A DNA stretch of 10,288 nt from an uncultured bacterium (GTDB lineage: Bacteria; CALINM01). Under the pieces are notes generated by a model. That model had not been told where the DNA came from and made no database searches. It worked only from the letters and a program-made list of their open reading frames with translations. Positions 1,141 through 10,288 of this stretch are shown here, piece by piece. Made by a program: the position numbers and the translations under genes. Position 1 is the first letter of the stretch; each line of letters opens with the position of its first letter. Location: assembly GCA_938045315.1 (NCBI GenBank), contig CALINM010000103.1:1-10288 (forward strand), read 5' to 3'.

Positions 1141-1349
1141 AAGAGTGTGCTCCAAAAATAGCCCAATAGCTCCGAAATATAACCAAGTAAAGGAAAACAA
1201 AAATTTAACCGAGCTAAGCAAACCAGCTATATTCCATAAGATAAACATACCCAACACTATAAACTTTGCTATATGCTCCCTCTGAACAAACTATAGGCTT
1301 ATATCCAAGAATTTTCATCTTTTTAATAAATTCCATACAACTTGTCACC
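1141..1349 (-). pseudogene. 3' end of an IS transposase gene plus its terminal repeat
   Basis: The minus strand reads KKMKILGYKPIVCSEG, then AYSKVYSVGYVYLMEYSWFA and a TAG at 1214-1216. The same tail is found, degraded, on the plus strand at about 1790-1931, so this is the C-terminal end of the same type of transposase in inverted orientation. The outer end (about 1144-1160, gtgctccaaaaatagcc) resembles the terminal repeat of the neighbouring element. Only the last roughly 45 codons and the 3' non-coding end remain. It abuts the left end of the second IS remnant at 1361, so the two copies lie tail to head across a sharp junction. It is not expected to be functional. Confidence 0.7.
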
Positions 1350-1360
1350 TACTATACTGA

Positions 1361-2000
1361 GAGTGTTCCAAAAATCCCGAAAGTATGAGAAACTGATACT
1401 CCATGAGGCACAAAAGCTTAACCACACTTAAACCAAAAGAAATCTATAACCTTATCAAACAATTCTATAAAGAACACCTACCAGAAAAACAAAAAAGAGG
1501 AAGACCAAGAAAATACTCAAAAGAACTAATACTGCTTTAAAAACCTACCAGAAGAAAGATTGCATCGGCTCCTCCTTTGGCTTTATAAAGAAGGAATTAG
1601 AGAAAAAAGGAGAGGTTCCATATGCTATGGTAGATGGAACAGGCATAGGATACAATACACCCTTTTATCTAAGAGATAAACGAGGTCAAGAGATAAGGAA
1701 GATAAGCTCCCATTTGAAGCTGGTTGCCTTTTGTTATTGGCAAGGGGGTAAGAAAGGCATATAGCGATGAGGGTTAATGTAATAAAAAAGATAGAAAGTC
1801 TTGGCTATAAGCCTATAGTTTGTTCAGAGGATACGATGGGAGTTACTTGGATGTTAAGAGGGAGGATATGGCAAAGCTTATGGTGTTGGGTATTTTTATC
1901 TTATGGAATATGGCTGGTTTGTTTAGCTTAGTTAAATTTTTGTTTCCTTTATACTTGGTGAGGATATTAAAGTCTTTAGGTTAATTTTGGAACACCCTTC
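1361..2000 (+). mobile_element. Decayed, internally deleted insertion sequence with terminal inverted repeats
   Basis: The left end gagtgttccaaaaat (1361-1375) is matched in inverted form by attttggaacaccctt (1984-1999), which bounds an element of about 640 bp. This is much shorter than a usual IS of this kind (over 1 kb), because the middle of the transposase gene is missing. An IS-type DDE transposase is encoded in pieces (see the next entry). The family could not be assigned securely; the GRPRKYSKEL and MVDGTGIGYNTPFYLRDK segments suggest an IS4/IS5-like DDE enzyme. A second 5' end of the same type, about nine tenths identical by eye, lies inverted at 9996-10136 on the far side of the Csm operon. 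Confidence 0.75.
1403..1931 (+). pseudogene. DDE transposase pseudogene in three fragments
   Basis: The gene starts at ATG 1403 and reads LKPKEIYNLIKQFYKEHL, then GRPRKYSKELILL, ending at TAA 1538-1540. A second piece resumes with FKNLPEERLHR, so the region between LILL and FKNL was deleted. The frame then changes to FGFIKKELEKKGE followed by AMVDGTGIGYNTPFYLRDK and RGQEIRKISSHLKLVAF, which contains the probable first catalytic aspartate (VDGTG). This piece stops at TAG 1762-1764. A last piece from ATG 1767 covers the C-terminal IESLGYKPIVCSE region in yet another frame context. The deletion, several frame changes and stops make this a dead gene. Confidence 0.75.
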
Positions 2001-2008
2001 TACTTTTC

Positions 2009-2057
2009 TTGACAATTATCCTTTATTTGCACACCATGAAAGCATATTAAGGAGGTG
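2009..2057 (+). promoter_or_regulatory. Relic promoter -35 box and strong ribosome binding site of the antitoxin stump
   Basis: A perfect -35 hexamer TTGACA lies at 2009-2014, nine bases beyond the IS end, but no convincing -10 box sits 16-18 bp further on. A strong Shine-Dalgarno sequence (aaggaggtg, 2049-2057) precedes the ATG at 2064 by six bases, which fixes the start of the VapB-like stump. The start signals have outlived the gene behind them. Confidence 0.45.
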
Positions 2058-2063
2058 TATAAT

Positions 2064-2144
2064 ATGCGTGCGACATTAAACATACCTGATGACCTCATTT
2101 TTAAGGTACAAGAGCTTTCGGGTGAAAAAAACAAAACATCGGAA
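2064..2144 (+). pseudogene. VapB-type antitoxin N-terminal stump
   Basis: The first 25 or so residues, MRATLNIPDDLIFKV then QELSGEKNKT, match the ribbon-helix-helix start of small VapB-family antitoxins of type II toxin-antitoxin systems. That start is typically an MRTTLNIPDDL strand followed by a helix ending in SGEKNKT. After about residue 26 the reading frame continues to 2303, but it is only the antisense of the neighbouring nucleotidyltransferase pseudogene, so the antitoxin body and any cognate PIN toxin are missing. The junction lies near 2136-2150. The stump retains a strong ribosome binding site. The family call rests on recognition of the motif; a shared ancestry of this 27-codon piece with VapB is likely, but function is not expected. 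Confidence 0.65.
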
Positions 2145-2515
2145 AAATCCATCAGTTCCCTTGATTCATCATTTTTAATCGCCTGCAGCTTAAAACCTAT
2201 AAGATCCTCTACCCTCAATACCTTAATGGTAATTGATTCTTTAAAGATCCTTCTTTCTTCTGATCTCTCAAGCATACTCAAAGAAGGTGTTCTGAAGGCA
2301 TGAATAAAATCCACTTCTCAAATATCTTTATTGGAGATAAATACTGTGAGACATTTTCACTCCTATATTAACATTTATTAACATTTATAACCGAGTGCCT
2401 CCATGATCTTATCCACTTTTTTTTATCATTTCTATGCACAAGAAAATCAATATCGACCGTGCTTCTTGGAACCCCAAATATATTAAGTGGCAATCCACTC
2501 ACTACCCATTTTCCT
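2145..2515 (-). pseudogene. Frameshifted nucleotidyltransferase (AbiEii/DUF6036-like) pseudogene
   Basis: Pieces of one protein appear in different minus-strand frames. GKWVVSGLPLNIFG and VPRSTVDIDFLVHRND give a polymerase-beta-type nucleotidyltransferase core, with the catalytic D-x-D as DID at 2454-2446. VDKIMEALGYKC follows after a shift in a run of eight A (2417-2424 as T). Next come YRSENVSQYLSPIKIF and then VDFIHAFRTPSLSMLERS with EDLIGFKLQAIKNDESREL. Such proteins occur as AbiEii-like toxins or stand-alone nucleotidyltransferases near defence loci. A near-perfect 10-bp tandem duplication lies in the coding path at about 2370-2390 (acatttatta, then acatttataa). The N-terminus is lost at the boundary with csm5 and the C-terminus at the junction with the VapB-like stump. 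With at least two frameshifts and one stop it is dead. Confidence 0.7.
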
Positions 2516-2544
2516 TCTGTGCCTCTTCAAAGGTCTTAAATTTT

Positions 2545-3699
2545 TTAATCGGCATCAACTACCTCAATTGCCGCCCAGCCAAAGGGGATCGCTTGATTAT
2601 TTTTAAGCCATACCCTTCTTGATTTGGGTGCGATATCCTGTCCTCTGTTTAGTCCTGCATAATTGCGAACCTTTTTTCTTAAGTCTTCATCAAGAAGCAT
2701 CACAATAGTTGTGGAAATCATTCCTGAACCAAAACCAATCCTGAAGTTTCCATGATTAATTTTATACCACTCTGTTAAGGTGTAGCCAGCAGAAAACTGC
2801 TTTTCAAAATTATGAACATCCTTTGCCCACTGTGTGATATTATCCAGTATTGCGTTAAAATCTTGAGGAAGGCTAATCTCTTTATTGGTTATTTTGAACT
2901 CCTCAAGAAGTCTATTGTCCCATGTGACTGTAAATTCAAAAATCGTATTTTCTGGTATGCATTCAATCCATATGGTGGTATTCTGTCCTGATGCCTCCTT
3001 TTTGTAAGCCCATCTATCTTCTTTCTTCAAGATATTTGCAGGTATAAGAACTGTTTCAATACCATTTGCCGGATAAGCATCTGATACATGAAGCATCCTC
3101 AACCAATCAGTATTTGGAGTTTTTCTTTTATTACCAAGAAGAAAGCCTTCAAGCCATTCCTCATTAGCCCACCGGAAGAGTTTCTTTTTGTTTTTCTTTC
3201 TGAAATCTTGATCTATATCCTCTGATATTTTTTGCTCTATTTTTCCTTTAAAACCTTCCTTATCTCTGTTCTTAAAGTCCTTAAGGAGATTATAAAGTAT
3301 AGCAGTTCTAATTACTCCCTTTATTGAGGTGCCCGGGATGTAGGGTTTGCCAAAGCCATCTCTTATAAATGGTTTATAATCCTGAAGTCCACTTCCTAAA
3401 AGCCTTGTTTTGCGACCACCGCTTATCTTTGTTAAATCAGTTTCAGTTAGTGTAACCTGATTATCTTTGAAAAAATTCAAGAGTCTGAATCTATGTCCAT
3501 CTCTATCAACAGCTGCAACATAAGAATCTATCAAATTCTTTTGACGCAAGAATAAAGAAAGTTTTTCATCAGATATTTGATAGACAAATTCATTCTGATG
3601 AATATATTCAAAGGGAGTAATTTTTTGCTCAACGTTTCCTATATGGATTGGAGATTTGGTAATGAGCCTCATCTTTTTCGTTTCAAAGATATTGTTCAC
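2545..3699 (-). CDS. csm5: Csm5, type III-A effector RAMP subunit
   Basis: This is a 384-residue RAMP-family protein, a normal size for Csm5, which caps the crRNA 3' side of the Csm ribonucleoprotein. The N-terminus MRLITKSPIHIGN (from residue 10) is the typical first RAMP strand. KPYIPGTSIKGVIRTAIL at about 119-135 is the conserved glycine and lysine segment shared by Csm3 and Csm5. GFGSG at 322-326 is the glycine-rich loop. The start is GTG at 3699, overlapping the csm4 stop by 4 bp (GTGA) and preceded by aaggag six bases upstream, which supports translational coupling. It is the last gene of the operon. Directly behind its stop lies a truncated nucleotidyltransferase pseudogene, and no clear terminator was seen. 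Confidence 0.92.
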   Translation of the reverse strand: MNNIFETKKMRLITKSPIHIGNVEQKITPFEYIHQNEFVYQISDEKLSLFLRQKNLIDSYVAAVDRDGHRFRLLNFFKDNQVTLTETDLTKISGGRKTRLLGSGLQDYKPFIRDGFGKPYIPGTSIKGVIRTAILYNLLKDFKNRDKEGFKGKIEQKISEDIDQDFRKKNKKKLFRWANEEWLEGFLLGNKRKTPNTDWLRMLHVSDAYPANGIETVLIPANILKKEDRWAYKKEASGQNTTIWIECIPENTIFEFTVTWDNRLLEEFKITNKEISLPQDFNAILDNITQWAKDVHNFEKQFSAGYTLTEWYKINHGNFRIGFGSGMISTTIVMLLDEDLRKKVRNYAGLNRGQDIAPKSRRVWLKNNQAIPFGWAAIEVVDAD

Positions 3700-4685
3700 T
3701 TAACACTCCTTAACGGTGCAGTAAAGGCATAGCCATATCTGTAAACCTTGTGAACTAATATGTTAAAAGGATCGGTATCTGGTGTAACATCTATAATGCA
3801 TCCCAGTGGCTGTTCTTTTAATACACTTCCCTCAATTATAAAGCCTACGGACTTTCTCTTTAATGGAAGGGCATATCTACCAGTAGTTACCCAGCCCCTT
3901 TTTCTTATTACATCATAGGCTATTAGTTTATCTTCAAGTGCATGAAGTTCATTTTCGGATGGATGGTACAGGGAAAGTAGGGTATAAGTATCAGAGTTGT
4001 TATTCAGAATCTTCTCAAATAAACCCGAAATTTTTTGAAAATTTTCTACTTCAAACATTCCACATCCATAAGTCCTTTCTCCGCCAAGTCCAATTTCGCC
4101 AAGTGTTTTTAGCAAAACCTCAAACTCTTTTATATAAGTTTCATTATTAAAAGCGACTAAACCATAAAGCCCGGCCTTTTCTTTAAAATATACATAGCCG
4201 GCATGATAAATATTACTATTCTGTGAAATCCTATCAAGTGTAACTCGTGGCCTTATTTCAGTGATAAAGGCTTTTTTATAAATTTCTTGCGCGGATTGCA
4301 TCTTTTCAATGTCTGTTTTCATAATATCCTTTCCGTTTAACCACTTAAAGAATCCTTCCAAATCAAGCCATTTGAGTTTTTTAAGTTCTTTGCCCAGCTT
4401 CTTTTTTAAGTCTTTACTAATATGATTATCAAATAGTGGGCGTGGTAAAAAGTAATTATCTTCTTGATATAGGAAAAGCGAGCTAATCAGAAATAGAGGT
4501 TTTTCCTTAAATGCCTGAATAAGAGTAGTGACAGCATCTTTTCCATTTAAAATTCTATTAGCATTCATAAGAGCAGAAAAAAAAGTATCAGAACTTACCC
4601 ATTCAGATACGTTCTCAAGGTCAATGCCTGTATCTCCAAAATGGGTTGCACCTTTAAACTTAAGTTTATAAACGTATATTTCCAT
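3696..4685 (-). CDS. csm4: Csm4, 5'-handle-binding RAMP subunit of the Csm complex
   Basis: Csm4 (Cas5-like) binds the crRNA 5' handle and contacts Cas10. The sequence begins MEIYVYKLKFKGATHFG, a typical first RAMP strand with the HFG turn. It carries the glycine-rich loop GLGGERTYGCGMFEV about two thirds along, followed by a second domain ending in FTAPLRSVK. The frame could begin further upstream, at TTG 4700 or ATG 4697, the latter overlapping the csm3 TGA. The ATG at 4685 has a better Shine-Dalgarno sequence (ggtgg, five bases upstream) and matches where family members usually start, giving 329 residues. It follows csm3 closely and overlaps csm5 by 4 bp. All expected parts are present. 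Confidence 0.9.
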   Translation of the reverse strand: MEIYVYKLKFKGATHFGDTGIDLENVSEWVSSDTFFSALMNANRILNGKDAVTTLIQAFKEKPLFLISSLFLYQEDNYFLPRPLFDNHISKDLKKKLGKELKKLKWLDLEGFFKWLNGKDIMKTDIEKMQSAQEIYKKAFITEIRPRVTLDRISQNSNIYHAGYVYFKEKAGLYGLVAFNNETYIKEFEVLLKTLGEIGLGGERTYGCGMFEVENFQKISGLFEKILNNNSDTYTLLSLYHPSENELHALEDKLIAYDVIRKRGWVTTGRYALPLKRKSVGFIIEGSVLKEQPLGCIIDVTPDTDPFNILVHKVYRYGYAFTAPLRSVK

Positions 4686-4696
4686 TGTTACCACCA

Positions 4697-5494
4697 TCAA
4701 ACGCCAAAAAGGGTTTTAATGTTAGTTAAATCATCCAGTGAGTTGCATATGACAATTTTTGTTGAATCGCCGTTCTTTAGATAATCAACAGTTATCGCTC
4801 TAATGCCATCAGTTCTATATTTGATTTCTACCTTTCCATACCCTCTTGAGCCATGGCCACCAATGGAATCAAGTTCTAAAAGGTCAAGGGCAAGTTTAAG
4901 ATTTTTTAGGTCATCCTCTATATGAGCTTTATCCTCTACATTGTATACAAGTTCTAATTCAAACTCCGCTCCACGGGGGACTCTCTCAATCTGTCTTGGA
5001 TTGGCTGCTGATGTAACTCTGTCAATAGCATTCTCAAACTTCCACTCTGTGTATTGAAGTCCAGTATCAATGTCAGAAAGTTTCGACACGCTATCTCTCG
5101 TAAGATAAAGATCACGAACTATCAAACGAGCAGGAAAGTTTTTGCCCCCATCTTTACCTGTTGAACCAAATATTCTACAAACGGGACAGGAAAATGCATC
5201 TTTTTCATTGTCGCAGACATGAATCCAAACTTCATTACTTCTTGTTCCTATGTTTCTTCTTTTTGTTGTACCCACAATTCCTAAATCTATTGCGAGTGCC
5301 TTTTCAAGCAAAGAGCGCATCTTGCCTTTCATGGAACTACCAGGTATATAAGGTTCACGGGTTACAGGATCACGAACAACAGATAAATCAATAGCCCCTA
5401 TTTCCATATTTTCTTTTGAGGCACCAATGTGCATACCTGTCAGGCACTCAAGGATACCCGAAATGATAATTTTACCTAATAGATTTCCATCCAT
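4697..5494 (-). CDS. csm3: Csm3, backbone RAMP subunit and target-RNA nuclease
   Basis: Csm3 forms the filament along the crRNA and cuts bound target RNA every six nucleotides. At 265 residues it is of somewhat larger than usual size. The catalytic aspartate is visible as D36 in MEIGAIDLSVVRD, equivalent to D33 of the streptococcal protein. EPYIPGSSMKGKMRSLLE (about 47-64) is the conserved crRNA-contacting segment. H92, C94, C103 and C106 (HVC...CPVC) look like the zinc-binding site seen in this subunit. IGGHGSRGYGKVEI near the C-terminus is the glycine-rich loop. The ATG at 5494 is preceded by ggagga at the right distance, 15 bp after the csm2 stop. The nuclease should be active. Confidence 0.93.
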   Translation of the reverse strand: MDGNLLGKIIISGILECLTGMHIGASKENMEIGAIDLSVVRDPVTREPYIPGSSMKGKMRSLLEKALAIDLGIVGTTKRRNIGTRSNEVWIHVCDNEKDAFSCPVCRIFGSTGKDGGKNFPARLIVRDLYLTRDSVSKLSDIDTGLQYTEWKFENAIDRVTSAANPRQIERVPRGAEFELELVYNVEDKAHIEDDLKNLKLALDLLELDSIGGHGSRGYGKVEIKYRTDGIRAITVDYLKNGDSTKIVICNSLDDLTNIKTLFGV

Positions 5495-5509
5495 GATTAA
5501 TCCTCCCTT

Positions 5510-5983
5510 TTATGAATCTTTACCTCCATAAAATCTGTGGTAAGCAATAATACCCTCTATGAGGGCAATTAACTTTTTAAAGTCCTCATAGGTTTTAGCA
5601 CCCGCTGTTATAGCAGGTTCTAATACATCCATTAAAGGTTTAATTTTTTCTCTATCCCTGCCAGCTGCATAAGCAAGTTTTGGCTTTAAAAGCACAACTA
5701 AATCCGAATTAAAATTCTTTCCCTTATTTGACTGGACATCAATCCTTCTTACCCCATCGAGGAATCTTCTGACCTGAGTTGTTTTTAGATCAAGAAGCTT
5801 GAGATATTTTCCCATTTTATCTGCTATTTCAACCAATTCATTAGCAGACAATTCTTTAAGCCCTCTTGTCTTATACGACTCTATTTTTTGTTTAACTTCC
5901 TGTACAGGTGATTCTTCCTGTCTTCTGTCGGCTCTGTTTTCTTGACGAGGCTCTCTTTGTCCATGATGTCTATTATCTGGCAT
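5510..5983 (-). CDS. csm2: Csm2, small subunit of the Csm complex, with charged N-terminal extension
   Basis: Csm2 is the helical small subunit that lines the target-RNA channel opposite Csm3. The recognisable core is LKPKLAYAAGRDREKIKPL followed by helices ending in IIAYHRFYGG. The first 30 or so residues (DNRHHGQREPRQENRADRR and on) are very rich in Arg, Gln, Glu and Asp, are probably disordered and are not part of the usual fold. The frame is open from GTG 5992, which would give 160 residues, but the ATG at 5983 has a better-spaced ribosome binding site (ggtga), giving 157 residues. The gene overlaps the end of cas10 by about 11 bp, implying coupled translation. Confidence 0.85.
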   Translation of the reverse strand: MPDNRHHGQREPRQENRADRRQEESPVQEVKQKIESYKTRGLKELSANELVEIADKMGKYLKLLDLKTTQVRRFLDGVRRIDVQSNKGKNFNSDLVVLLKPKLAYAAGRDREKIKPLMDVLEPAITAGAKTYEDFKKLIALIEGIIAYHRFYGGKDS

Positions 5984-8414
5984 TTCCGTCACCCCCTTTT
6001 CTCATCATCATTAATGTTAATAGTGTTGCTACTTCTGTAATCTTCCATTCATTTTCATTGGAAGTCATGATAACCTCCTTTAACTTTAAAATATCTTTAG
6101 GATTAACTCCCTTTAACCTTGCCCTTGAGATTAGATACGCTGCCTTTGGCAGAATCAAAACCTTGTCATCATTAAACCTTCTTGCCAACGCAAGAAGGCG
6201 GTAAAAGAATGTCTTTGGCAGCTTGTCCTCATCAATTGCAAGGTGGTCTCCTTTAGGGATAAGAAAACCTTTAAAGAGTTTAAGCCTTTCCAATATCTTT
6301 TCTATGTTATTCCATTTGAAAACATATCTATCAAAAAGTGTGATTGCATCTTTGCCAATTCTTTTATCTTTTGCCATTTTTTCAGATGCTTCAGCATCTT
6401 TTGCAAACTGATAAACAGGGTGTTTCTCATGGTTTATAGCAATTCCACCTGAAATGGTTATAAAAGGGTTGCCTGTATATTTCTTGAAATATTTATTTAT
6501 GTCAATAGCTGCCTCTATAACATCAAGCCAGTGGCCAATGATAAATAAGTCATCACCTCCCGAATAGACAACTGTAAGCATCCTTCCTTTCTCCTTCACA
6601 TTTCTTTCAGCGATGTCGGTTGGGTCATCTATTCCTTTACCTTCCACTATTTCATTGAGACAGGATTTAAAAAATTTGTTCAACCCTCTTGAAATAGACG
6701 CCATACGAGAAAATGTTCTACATTCTTCAGGCACTGACTCTGAAAAAATCTTACCGAGGTTATCCACATCCATCCTTAGGACCGCAATCCGATTAATGCC
6801 AAAAATAGGAGAGGCATCAGAAAGCTCTACAAGTTTTTCATGCTGATAAATACCCAATTGTAGATAAACTGATTTAGGATGGCTGTAGTGTTTTGCAGTT
6901 AAATCATTTATCCTGTAAACAGCTACAGCAGAAGAATGAAGGGTTTTATCCCATCCTTTCTTGAAGAGATAATAACTATCCATAATCTTGATTGCATCTT
7001 CTGATGGTTCAGACAGTTTGAATATTACTGGAAATTCTCCATGTGATATTTTTTTAAGCAATTCTCCGAGTCGATATTGTGTTTTGCATGGTTCGCAAAC
7101 CTTTAATATATCTTCATTCCGATGTAAATCCACTAAAGGGAGGTCTTCTCTAAAACAGACCTCACAATATTGAGTAAAGCAGTCTTTGTGAGGCATTTCC
7201 GTATTCAGTATTTCTATAATCCTTTCCTTCCATTTCGTCTTTTTGGCTGTTTCAAGTTTTTCTACAAGTCTACTCCAAACTTCTTTGGTATTTCTAAAAT
7301 TGTCTGGATGAAATTCTTCATAGGCAAGATGGAGCTGAAGATTACCCTTAAATTCCCTGAATAGATATTCATCGACCTTTGCTTTTACTGTCTTAATCGC
7401 ATCTTTTGCAGTAAGGGTATTATAAGAAAGTATATAGAAATGCCCGCCTCCTGAAAATATAATATTGCATCGAGTAAGGTTCAATGACTCTATAAATTCA
7501 GATACTATATGTTCACATAAAAGTTCAAGAAAGAATGACCTGCCTTTTAGTGACTTTAGAGCGCCTTTGGATGTAATTGTATAGATAAACTTCTGAACAC
7601 CTGATATATCTCCGCCAATCAAGAGGTATGGATTTACACCATTAGGCACATTCAGGATTTCGTCTTTAAGAAGTTCGTTTCTTTGCCATTTTTCAGGATA
7701 GATTTCCTTGTAATAGTGATACATGCACCCTGCTATAGCGGCAGTGAGTTTTGAATGGTCAAAGAGAGATAGATCAGGGTGTTTGTCTTTGATTTCTTCT
7801 TTTCTTGATCCATCATAAATCTTCATGGTTATTGAAGGAACTCTGGAGAAATGCTTTTCAAAAAGCATCAGAAGGAAATTTATAGAGTGTGGCTTTGAAA
7901 TCTCAGGATTATGAAAATCCTTTTCAAATTCATTCCATATTCTTTTATAATCTTCTTTAGAGTATTCTGGAGCTTCTTTTAAAGCCACATCAATCCTCTT
8001 CTCGTTTATTAAAGGTAGAAAGTAAAGGGGTGGTTTTTCTTTTATATTGTTAGGATTATTTATCCTGCTAAAAGGACAAGCGATACTAATTTCAGAATGC
8101 CATTTGCCCTCTTCAAGTTTTTCTTTTTCTACACCAGCCCTTTCTTTAGATGAAAGATTGTCTGCCTGATACCATATCAGACCGAAGTTATTATTAAGGG
8201 CATAATCGTCGTCTTTTGTATAATGGTGAGCAATGGCAGACAAGGCAATCAATTCATTATCGAGGTTTTCTTTAAGCCAATCATATCCCCATTCAGTGTG
8301 CTTCTTGGTGGCGGGGTTATCTTGTGCTCTTTGAATTACTTTACCTATATCATGTAGAAGTGCTCCTTTAACAATCGAGAGAAAATGATTGTCCTTCATA
8401 TTTTTCTCCGTCAT
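5973..8414 (-). CDS. cas10: Cas10/Csm1, large subunit with HD nuclease and cyclic-oligoadenylate synthase motifs
   Basis: Cas10 is the signature subunit of type III systems. When the complex binds target RNA it can cut single-stranded DNA and make cyclic oligoadenylate. At 813 residues it is of usual length. The HD domain is intact (GALLHDIGK, H21-D22, plus HH at 63-64). The first palm domain contains SGGGHFYIL (321-329) in place of a GGDD. A zinc finger has C417, C420, C440 and C443. The second palm has RMDVDNLG (547-554, D549 and D551) and YSGGDD (617-622), the catalytic motif for cyclisation. A helical C-terminal domain follows. ATG 8414 has no Shine-Dalgarno sequence; ATG 8399, five codons in, is preceded by GGAG and is probably the true start. 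It is the first large gene of the operon, with its own promoter at 8525-8553. Confidence 0.95.
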   Translation of the reverse strand: MTEKNMKDNHFLSIVKGALLHDIGKVIQRAQDNPATKKHTEWGYDWLKENLDNELIALSAIAHHYTKDDDYALNNNFGLIWYQADNLSSKERAGVEKEKLEEGKWHSEISIACPFSRINNPNNIKEKPPLYFLPLINEKRIDVALKEAPEYSKEDYKRIWNEFEKDFHNPEISKPHSINFLLMLFEKHFSRVPSITMKIYDGSRKEEIKDKHPDLSLFDHSKLTAAIAGCMYHYYKEIYPEKWQRNELLKDEILNVPNGVNPYLLIGGDISGVQKFIYTITSKGALKSLKGRSFFLELLCEHIVSEFIESLNLTRCNIIFSGGGHFYILSYNTLTAKDAIKTVKAKVDEYLFREFKGNLQLHLAYEEFHPDNFRNTKEVWSRLVEKLETAKKTKWKERIIEILNTEMPHKDCFTQYCEVCFREDLPLVDLHRNEDILKVCEPCKTQYRLGELLKKISHGEFPVIFKLSEPSEDAIKIMDSYYLFKKGWDKTLHSSAVAVYRINDLTAKHYSHPKSVYLQLGIYQHEKLVELSDASPIFGINRIAVLRMDVDNLGKIFSESVPEECRTFSRMASISRGLNKFFKSCLNEIVEGKGIDDPTDIAERNVKEKGRMLTVVYSGGDDLFIIGHWLDVIEAAIDINKYFKKYTGNPFITISGGIAINHEKHPVYQFAKDAEASEKMAKDKRIGKDAITLFDRYVFKWNNIEKILERLKLFKGFLIPKGDHLAIDEDKLPKTFFYRLLALARRFNDDKVLILPKAAYLISRARLKGVNPKDILKLKEVIMTSNENEWKITEVATLLTLMMMRKGGDGNAR

Positions 8415-8415
8415 T

Positions 8416-8478
8416 TCAATCTATACAGGGATATGACATAGCTATCACTACTGTATCTCTTTTAGTTAAATTACTCAT
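8416..8478 (-). CDS. Possible 20-codon leader ORF ahead of cas10
   Basis: ATG 8478 is preceded by a good ribosome binding site (aaggaaggg) and opens a 20-residue frame, MSNLTKRDTVVIAMSYPCID. It ends with TGA one base before the first possible cas10 ATG (TGA-A-ATG). It lies in the 5' leader downstream of the predicted promoter, at about +40. It could be a translationally coupling leader peptide. It could also be a relic: MSNLTKRDTVVIA resembles the way some Cas10 proteins begin, so an older N-terminus may have been displaced by a frame change. Nothing else supports a function. Confidence 0.3.
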   Translation of the reverse strand: MSNLTKRDTVVIAMSYPCID

Positions 8479-8524
8479 ATCCCTTCCTTTTTCCAATGAA
8501 ATTCAAAAACTAAGATTCTAATAA

Positions 8525-8553
8525 ATTATCCCAAAAATTTACCTCTTTTTCAA
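8525..8553 (-). promoter_or_regulatory. Sigma70-type promoter of the csm operon
   Basis: On the minus strand TTGAAA (8553-8548) and GATAAT (8530-8525) are separated by exactly 17 bp, both close to the housekeeping consensus. Transcription would start near 8518, about 105 bp before the first possible cas10 start, leaving a leader that carries the 20-codon frame. The -35 box is five bases from the tandem palindromes. Confidence 0.65.
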
Positions 8554-8580
8554 GAAAAGAAATATTTCTGAAATGTTTCA
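8551..8580 (-). promoter_or_regulatory. Operator-like tandem palindromes ahead of the csm promoter (copy 2)
   Basis: Reading the minus strand, GAAACATTTC (8579-8570) and GAAATATTTC (8568-8559) follow each other with an 11-bp period, then TTTTC leads into the -35 box. Twenty-eight of 30 bases match 9787-9816. Two dyads one helical turn apart directly upstream of a -35 box look like a cooperative regulator site. The first bases coincide with the TGA that ends the relic csm6-like frame. Confidence 0.6.
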
Positions 8581-9728
8581 TTCTATTCTTATATTACTTT
8601 TCTCCAGCCATATGCCATATCTACTGCTACAATATCTTTTCAGGGATGTGATTTGATAGTACGGAAGGAATATCTAATCTGCAAGCTTTTCCTCCAATGT
8701 TCTGTTAATTTTGCTGATATTCTGGCGTATTATATCTTCATCTATTCCATCATCCCATCTTTTTAAAAATCTTTCACCTTAAAATTCTGCTCCAGGTATA
8801 TCTTTTTTTAATCCTTAGTCATTTTCTCTGTTAAGGATCGCCTTGAGAAATCTACCAGTGTGAGGAAACACTCATTGCAGTCAAGACAGTAGGGCCAGTC
8901 AGGATATTTGCAATTATCTATCTTCAGCCTTAAAAAGGCGGTATAGATCATCAATTCTACTGGCACCATTTCTATGATTGTGTTGCCGATTTTGATGAAT
9001 CTTTGAGCAAGATTCACTGTTAGTTCTGGCTGGATTGTGGCTGTGTCTATTTCATTCTGGCTTTCTAAAACTAGTTCCCGGAACCCCATTCCATGCAATG
9101 AAATCTTGTTACCAAGCCTTATAAAGGGTAAATCTGCAAGCTCTATTTTGGCCTCTGCTGTATTAAGACCTTTGATGCTTCCATCAGGCATCCTGCACTC
9201 AATAAACTTATCATTTTTTGGCTTATAGAAGAATGCAGGATTTGACTCAAACTCAGAGGTTACAAGGACATGGTAGAGCTTATCCCATGGTCTTCCAAAG
9301 AGCTGAAGGGCTGAGCCAAGATAAAAGCTCATGGTCTTTCTTCAGTCTGCCAGTGAACAGTGAAGGCAAGTATTCATATCTTTTGCCTTTTCCCTGATAA
9401 AAGATGTAATAGCATCTCCCGTAGCCTCGTTTTCCTCTCTACTTCTTATGTCATCAAGGATAATGCCGCTGGTATCCTTCACGATAATGAAGGATTCATC
9501 TGTAAGTATGAATGAGGGAATATTGTATTCCTCACACATGGTTTTTGGTATTTGCTGTTTGATAATTGTTTCCTCTATGCGTTTTTTGCCTGTTTTAGTG
9601 GTTATGATATAAAGCTCATCGGCATATACGGGAGGATCTTTAATGGCAAGGGCAAAAATCGTTTCTGTTATGATCTGAGGGGTTGCTCCAGCAACAAATA
9701 TGAAGACTTCTTTAAAGTTATGATTCAT
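8578..9728 (-). pseudogene. Broken CARF-domain accessory protein (Csm6/NE0113-like)
   Basis: The gene starts at ATG 9728 with FIFVAGATPQIITETIFAL, the first strand and loop of the CARF fold that binds cyclic oligoadenylate. After CLHCSLAD an in-frame TGA (9344-9342) replaces a glycine of the conserved S-x-A-G-G-R-K motif. The same frame then continues as RKTMSFYLGSALQLFGRPWD through to TAA at 8808. A further frame (8778-8578) carries ERFLKRWDDGIDED, NISKINRTLEEKLAD, a TAG, then PYYQITSLKRYC and RYGIWLEKSNIRIE with a TGA. That is the expected C-terminal end of the NE0113-type family. So there is at least one nonsense codon in the binding motif, one frame change and another stop. No HEPN R-x4-6-H motif was identified. 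In working relatives the protein would act downstream of Cas10 signalling. Confidence 0.8.
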
Positions 9729-9759
9729 AGGTTAATGCCTGTTGTTTAAAACTGAAAAA

Positions 9760-9789
9760 ATTATAATAGAAAAAATAAACACAACGCAA
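9760..9789 (-). promoter_or_regulatory. Probable promoter of the csm6-like gene
   Basis: A perfect TATAAT lies at 9765-9760 on the minus strand (within TATTATAAT). A weak -35 box TTGCGT (9789-9784) sits 18 bp upstream, directly behind the shared palindromic element. The predicted transcript would start near 9753, about 25 bases before ATG 9728. The weak -35 next to a putative binding site would suit activation, but repression is equally possible. Confidence 0.5.
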
Positions 9790-9816
9790 GAAAAGAAATA
9801 TTTTTGAAATATTTCA
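9787..9816 (-). promoter_or_regulatory. Operator-like tandem palindromes ahead of the csm6-like promoter (copy 1)
   Basis: On the minus strand GAAATATTTC (9815-9806) and AAAATATTTC (9804-9795) repeat with an 11-bp period, followed by TTTTC and the TTG of the -35 box. The outer unit extends to a perfect 12-bp palindrome TGAAATATTTCA (9816-9805). It matches 28 of 30 bases at 8551-8580, and the same five-base distance to the -35 is kept. Confidence 0.6.
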
Positions 9817-9838
9817 GAGAGGGTCTAATTGGTGTCAA

Positions 9839-9909
9839 TATGAAGTTATGGAGCGCTTCTGGATGAGGCGTGAGACTGTGATACCTACAAAGCGCCTTCG
9901 CACTTCATA
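9839..9909. repeat. Symmetric 71-nt foldback
   Basis: TATGAAGT (9839-9846) pairs with ACTTCATA (9902-9909), and GCGCTT (9853-9858) pairs with AAGCGC (9890-9895). The two stems are separated by exactly six unpaired bases on each side and enclose a 31-base loop. No open reading frame of note crosses it. It could be a structured RNA, a recombination site or a foldback relic; nothing in the sequence decides between these. Confidence 0.4.
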
Positions 9910-9925
9910 AGAGTCTGTTCAGCTG

Positions 9926-9994
9926 GTAGCCGCAAGCTTTAGCTTGCGTTTTTTGTATTTCCACCATTTATCGCAGTCTGAAGTCTGCGGCTAC
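9926..9994. repeat. REPIN-like pair of inverted REP sequences
   Basis: A 23-bp unit starting GTAGCCGCA with an internal hairpin (CGCAAGCTTTAGCTTGCG, 9931-9948) is followed, inverted, by a variant at 9972-9994 that also begins GTAGCCGCA on the minus strand and has its own hairpin around CTTCAG. Head-to-head REP units of this form (GTAGCCGCA-R-R-CTT-Y-A-G type) occur as dispersed intergenic repeats mobilised by REP-associated tyrosine transposases. The right unit directly borders the IS fragment. Confidence 0.6.
9931..9954 (+). terminator. Possible intrinsic terminator formed by the left REP unit
   Basis: The stem CGCAAG/CTTGCG with an AT-rich six-base loop is followed at once by six T on the plus strand. 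This is the form of a Rho-independent terminator for transcripts entering from the left, although no plus-strand gene ends here. Confidence 0.35.
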
Positions 9995-9995
9995 T

Positions 9996-10136
9996 TCCTT
10001 TTTTGTTTTTCTGGTGGGTGTTCTTTTTAGAATTGTTTGATGAAGCTATAGATTTCTTTTGGTTTAAGTGTGGTTAATCTTCTGCACTTCATAGAATATT
10101 AGTTTCTCATACTTTCGGGATTTTTGGAACAGCCTC
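9996..10136 (-). mobile_element. 5'-end fragment of the same insertion sequence, inverted relative to the left copy
   Basis: The minus strand from 10136 begins with a terminal-repeat-like gaggctgttccaaaaat. It then follows the left IS end (1361-1502) at about nine tenths identity by eye, through the start of the transposase (LTTLKPKEIYS, ATG at 10092). A TAA falls early in that frame, so it is not coding. Similarity ends at the REP boundary near 9995. Relative to 1361-1502 it is inverted, so the two arms face each other across the Csm operon. Confidence 0.75.
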
Positions 10137-10145
10137 TCTTTTCTC

Positions 10146-10288
10146 TCAGGGTATTCCAAAAATATAGCCTATGATTACCCACAGGCTACGCCCCTACTCC
10201 CTGAAGTAGGAACTCGTGCCCATAATTGGTCCCCCTACTTACCCTGAAGAAGTCTACACTTCAGGATAGAGAGGTTCCTTAATACCCT
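10146..10288. other. Hairpin-rich non-coding stretch, possible IS end
   Basis: No gene was found here. gtattccaaaaatatagcc (10151-10169) resembles the far end of the IS at about 1146-1164. Three simple hairpins follow: TAGCCT/AGGCTA (10165-10188), CCTACT/AGTAGG (10193-10210) and CCTGAAG/CTTCAGG (10243-10265). CCCCTACT followed by CCCTGAAG occurs twice, at 10191-10206 and, with two extra bases, at 10232-10249. Hairpin-bounded ends of this kind occur in IS200/IS605 elements, but the transposase would lie outside the window, so that reading is only a guess. Confidence 0.35.

Follow-up and report, generated by a model that had tools for sequence, protein, structure and literature searches.

A tandem 11-bp operator at CRISPR-Cas promoters, a probable binding site of the CARF-family protein NE0113

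Two copies of a 21-bp element in the window, the whole 10,288-nt stretch of DNA analysed here, belong to a CRISPR-Cas regulon. Judged by the sequence of its copies and of their surroundings, the element is a regulon operator and not a dispersed repeat: it is confined to CRISPR-Cas loci, shares one geometry and is used at cas10/csm, cmr1, cas2-cas1, cas3, NE0113 and array leaders. It is probably the landing site of NE0113, a CRISPR-encoded sensor, and we infer that the NE0113-family accessory protein is its binder. The combined proposal, a CRISPR-Cas regulon operator bound by a cyclic oligoadenylate (cOA)-sensing NE0113 that most likely acts as an activator, is in our judgement a likely one. 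Since the element lies upstream of many CRISPR promoters in Nitrospirota-like bacteria and is likely an NE0113 site, a dedicated switch seems to turn the whole CRISPR apparatus of these organisms up or down.

The window encodes a type III-A effector operon, with cas10/csm1 (5973–8414) followed by csm2 (5510–5992), csm3 (4697–5494), csm4 (3696–4700) and csm5 (2545–3699), all on the minus strand, as is the accessory gene, which starts at 9728. The sequence-only reading of this DNA had reported that positions 8551–8580 and 9787–9816 match in 28 of 30 bases. This is exact, and the two segments are the top 30-mer pair of the window; in six third-order shuffles the best pair reached 22–23 of 30 and never exceeded 23. 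Both copies read on the minus strand and contain operator 1 (8559–8579, GAAACATTTC-A-GAAATATTTC), located before cas10/csm1, and operator 2 (9795–9815, GAAATATTTC-A-AAAATATTTC), located before the accessory gene, with a TTG starting 5 bp past each element. Each operator lies directly upstream of a predicted sigma70-type promoter on the same strand, TTGAAA-N17-GATAAT (8525–8553) for the cas10-csm operon and TTGCGT-N18-TATAAT (9760–9789) for the accessory gene. The ancestral stop codon of the accessory gene (TGA, 8580–8578) shares bases with operator 1. The earlier view that this is a shared promoter element, with conservation limited to the repeats, their spacing and the −35/−10 geometry, holds and points to a dedicated CRISPR regulator. 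By contrast, the description of the units as palindromes 11 bp apart had to be amended. The distance is 11 bp from start to start, but the units are 10 bp long and the gap is only 1 bp. Furthermore, only two of the four units, the GAAATATTTC copies at 8559–8568 and 9806–9815, are perfect palindromes, whereas the GAAACATTTC unit of operator 1 has an asymmetric CA centre and is not palindromic, and the unit at 9795–9804 reads GAAATATTTT on the plus strand.

The consensus of 34 oriented sites is GAAAYATTTC-N-GAAAYATTTC-TTTTSTTG, followed by a −10 box at about +28. The search pattern behind this set fixed the A and T columns only and left the G/C columns free, so that the G that begins and the C that ends a unit, kept in 28–30 of the 34 sites, were not imposed by the search. 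Positions 5/16 carry C 25 times, whereas positions 6/17 carry G 4 times (p=1e-4), so the units point promoter-ward and are direct repeats rather than symmetric dyads. The symmetric dyads proposed earlier are therefore doubtful. Relative to the predicted start site, the element runs from about −61 to −41, ending 5 bp before the TTG of the −35 box. Direct repeats of this kind, which recur every 11 bp and face one way with respect to the promoter, are of the tandem OmpR/PhoB type. OmpR/PhoB proteins bind as tandem dimers to direct repeats with strict spacing (e.g. 7 bp plus a 4-bp spacer; PMC4832192), and their operators, such as the pho box, are head-to-tail repeats with a period of ~11 bp next to the −35.

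The element recurs in relatives of the host. In contig L012, whose Cas10 is 76% identical, it lies 64 bp ahead of an intact accessory gene, with TYTTCTTG and the promoter spacing retained and divergent flanks. The complete genome G263, with an accessory protein 71% identical to that of the window, has operator sites at the head of the accessory (NE0113) operon, before cas2, at two III-A array leaders and at four III-B array leaders, and G386 has them before the NE0113 gene, before cas2-cas1 and at an array leader. The exact pattern RAAAYRTTTYNRAAAYRTTTY was then scanned across 295 genomes of the phylum of G263, which we read as Nitrospirota-like, with the reversed pattern as a control. About 50 sites were found in 25 genomes, against 4 single sites with the reversed pattern. 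By our count from their surroundings, some 40 of these lie at CRISPR-Cas genes or arrays, and another four occur next to cas remnants or at the end of a contig. A further six or so resemble chance hits, in line with the reversed control; the sites judged chance or unexplained are those in G534, G545, G570 and G669, G499:C143 and G263:1036246. The last of these (L048:5247) is a perfect operator with a PEGA lipoprotein and an IS21 element for neighbours and no cas gene nearby. A stricter pattern, applied to 386 genomes of other groups, gave one site beyond those of the window genome and G263. Across the entire 1.86 Mb of the host genome, a search with 0–1 mismatches returned the two window sites and no others. 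Thus, the further matches before cas or CARF genes that had been proposed as a check were found in the phylum scan, G263 and G386, and the frequent occurrence in unrelated intergenic regions that would have spoken for an ordinary repeat was not seen. The Csm operon and the accessory gene, to which the element had been assigned, both carry it, but the regulon is wider.

The targets comprise cas10, cmr1, cas2-cas1, cas3, NE0113, array leaders and a TraT gene heading an NE0113-cas10 operon. In nearly all cases, including L025, L092, L097, L099, L100, L108 and L115, the cas2 start codon lies 41–42 bp past the operator, approximately where transcription should begin, and a leaderless cas2 mRNA is therefore predicted. 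An operator also stands ahead of a cas3 helicase gene adjoining cmr genes (L110:8159–9998), which places a type I gene in the regulon. Genes for a surface-exclusion-like TraT lipoprotein (PF05818) were observed at L103:7490–8245, L116:9104–9868 and L025:12893–13120. The first is directly behind an operator and ahead of NE0113-cas10, and the second is also behind an operator; TraT of G263 is reduced to a C-terminal remnant.

A variant of the operator provides an independent test. Three genomes with no canonical operator (G522, G595 and G512) have tandem RMAAYATTGY units before NE0113 that likewise recur every 11 bp and occupy the same place. When twelve genomes were scanned for this variant, it was found before cas2-cas1 in G629, G595 and G522, and also before NE0113 in G629, a genome outside the set that had defined it. 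The variant, TTGT in place of TTTC, is the same at the NE0113 and cas2-cas1 promoters, and such paired changes are the trace expected of one trans-acting regulator with drifting specificity. Comparison of the NE0113 recognition helix with the operator variant gave no clean link, G595 combining a TTTC-type helix with a TTGT operator, and the correspondence is suggestive only. For the other NE0113 genes, a de novo search of their upstream regions for 11-bp repeats yielded no further clear operators. In L130 and L131, which encode a second NE0113 type, a tandem ATATTGCAAA-like 10-bp repeat lies just upstream of the start and is perhaps another operator.

The sequence-only reading saw no regulator gene in the window; however, the accessory gene itself (8578–9728, minus strand) belongs to the CARF family NE0113 (TIGR02584/PF09623), predicted to regulate transcription. 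Both of its halves exceed the curated family cut-off, as do homologues in 45 genomes. When the two window fragments were scanned against NCBIfam, TIGR02584 was the sole match and the Csa3 family model gave none. In 2014, NE0113 was predicted to be a CARF-winged-helix transcription factor that, like Csa3, acts without an effector and regulates transcription directly (Makarova et al. 2014, PMC4012209). Its distribution is consistent with a role at the operator. Within the 295-genome phylum set, NE0113 is present in 19 of the 25 operator genomes versus 26 of the 270 others (p=6e-13); the association is weak once only Cas10-positive genomes are counted (12/31 versus 3/21, p=0.07, raw test). Moreover, NE0113 lies behind the operator in many genomes, and no other recurrent regulator family or HTH gene was found in the operator neighbourhoods. 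The six operator genomes without NE0113 are G544, where an apparent NE0113 start is interrupted by the contig end, four genomes with sites judged chance, and G412, a true exception with three good operators and NE0113 undetected. Conversely, 26 genomes have NE0113 without the canonical operator, and the variant was seen in only a few. A search of IMG/VR gave no NE0113 relatives.

The N-terminus of the protein is CARF/NE0113, with no receiver domain. NCBIfam labels the family 'ring nuclease Csm6', yet the C-terminus lacks a shared HEPN RxxxxH motif, no R-x(4-6)-H being conserved in this domain across 13 homologues. When the C-terminus was compared by hhalign with OmpR-family proteins of the same genomes, the score was 34.1 (P=4.7e-5, probability 68), against at most 15.9 with shuffled columns. 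The DNA-binding domain of KdpE is among four weak PDB matches and covers the same N-terminal segment (E=1.2), and the full-length profile matched PDB entries in the CARF region only. An AlphaFold model built from three sequences was of too low quality (pLDDT 41) to reveal the fold, and a PDB search with it was meaningless beyond a weak top match, the CARF protein Card1.

In the window, the NE0113 frame is not intact: it contains an in-frame TGA (9342–9344, minus strand) within the conserved SLAGGRKTM motif, a 1-nt deletion and further stops. The near-identical contig L011 has the same TGA, and the window copy carries additional lesions; 11 of the 21 differences between the two NE0113 copies cluster in 8670–8870. 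As read from these lesions, the gene is in the course of decay. Both window operators are intact although the gene is broken. They may be relics, may answer to another NE0113 copy elsewhere or may work without NE0113, and present-day control in the window is uncertain because the regulator gene is broken there.

According to the proposed mechanism, Cas10 would make cOA upon target recognition, the CARF domain of NE0113 would sense it, and the predicted OmpR/PhoB-like winged helices would form a tandem dimer on the two 11-bp units, between about −61 and −41. Bound NE0113 would then contact RNA polymerase at the −35 and, as the most likely sign of regulation, activate transcription, and positive autoregulation would provide more complex, adaptation genes and arrays during infection. 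Activation is favoured because of the operator position upstream of the −35; a fixed site directly upstream of, and not over, the −35/−10 is typical of activators. The opposite sign, in which NE0113 sits on the operator as a repressor until it is released by cOA or by cOA cleavage, is less likely, and we regard it as an unlikely outcome with some arguments on its side. Repressors commonly have autoregulated operators, Csa3b, a CARF-wHTH protein of archaea, represses interference genes together with Cascade (review PMC10013973), and the operator copies at array leaders lack the same, activator-type −35/−10 geometry, but the fixed position directly upstream of the promoter boxes, rather than over them, argues against repression. 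A broader claim, that NE0113 is a cOA-responsive master switch through which one operator, once a type III complex recognises its target, raises transcription of several CRISPR types, leaderless cas2-cas1, the arrays and the surface-exclusion-like TraT, is tentative, and we would lean slightly against it. If it is true, sensing one invader would boost memory formation and the whole defence.

Other binders, or none, could also account for the element. A real, CRISPR-specific operator might be bound by a regulator encoded elsewhere, such as a ribbon-helix-helix or other HTH protein, instead of NE0113. The near-palindromic units could suit a dimeric binder, operators occur in G412, where NE0113 was not detected, and the window has two intact operators and a dead NE0113 gene. 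Nevertheless, such a regulator would need to be common to several families, and it would leave aside the strong co-occurrence of operator and NE0113, the fact that in many genomes the gene behind the operator is NE0113 itself, and the matching variants at the NE0113 and cas2-cas1 promoters; we consider it improbable. An UP element, that is, a pair of A/T tracts read by the RNA polymerase alpha subunit and producing strong constitutive promoters with no regulator, would fit the placement at about −61 to −41 and the 11-bp phasing of the A/T tracts, both of which are features of UP elements. It would not call for unforced G/C unit ends in 28–30 of 34 sites, for confinement to CRISPR loci instead of strong promoters generally, or for a TTGT variant set, and is thus very improbable. 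Least credible is that the element is a short dispersed repeat, marks the end of a transposon or arose when one promoter region was recently duplicated. IS-like inverted repeats do flank the contig, but the host genome has two sites only, the 384 genomes left when the two focal ones are set aside have a single site, and in divergent species only the element and the promoter are conserved. With few copies, tied to cas genes, this explanation is largely refuted, and we give it next to no weight.

A CRISPR-encoded CARF protein with a predicted C-terminal winged helix and a putative role at cas promoters, including cas1/cas2, resembles Csa3a and Csa3b, CARF-wHTH proteins that in archaea regulate type I-A adaptation and Cmr genes (PMC4333418, PMC7480081, PMC8699464). 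Csa3, however, is archaeal and has a MarR-like wHTH, whereas NE0113 is bacterial, with a predicted OmpR/PhoB-like wHTH and a Cys-rich insertion, and its putative operator is a tandem 11-bp repeat adjoining a bacterial sigma70-type promoter. OmpR/PhoB response regulators, in turn, use a phosphorylated receiver domain, in place of which NE0113 has a CARF domain. Type III cas genes are also under the transcriptional control of CasR in Mycobacterium, which is described from one species and appears not to be a CARF protein encoded at the CRISPR locus (PMC9953421). A 2022 review names Csa3 as the sole experimentally characterised non-nuclease CARF effector (PMC9704534), and the literature searched, which under-represents subscription papers, contained no operator, target genes or regulon for NE0113. 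In archaea, cas genes are already known to be under CARF-wHTH control (Csa3). How bacterial type III CRISPR systems switch on is poorly known, and the gain is a specific operator, a list of target genes and a candidate regulator for a widespread, uncharacterised CARF family. With these three named, the 2014 prediction becomes testable by one binding assay. If it is true, cOA signalling in bacteria would influence how adaptation genes and arrays are transcribed, linking detection to memory.

Several further features of the contig were observed. Positions 3–1064 encode a 354-aa protein with no match in Pfam or NCBIfam. Near both contig ends lie 139-nt inverted repeats (1359–1497 and 9998–10136) that are 89% complementary and represent IS or MITE copies. 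Window positions 1279–10288 are 99.8% identical over 9 kb to L011 positions 4126–13136 (CALLBR010000046.1, from another MAG); by kinship, that MAG belongs to a different phylum, which indicates misbinning or very recent transfer.
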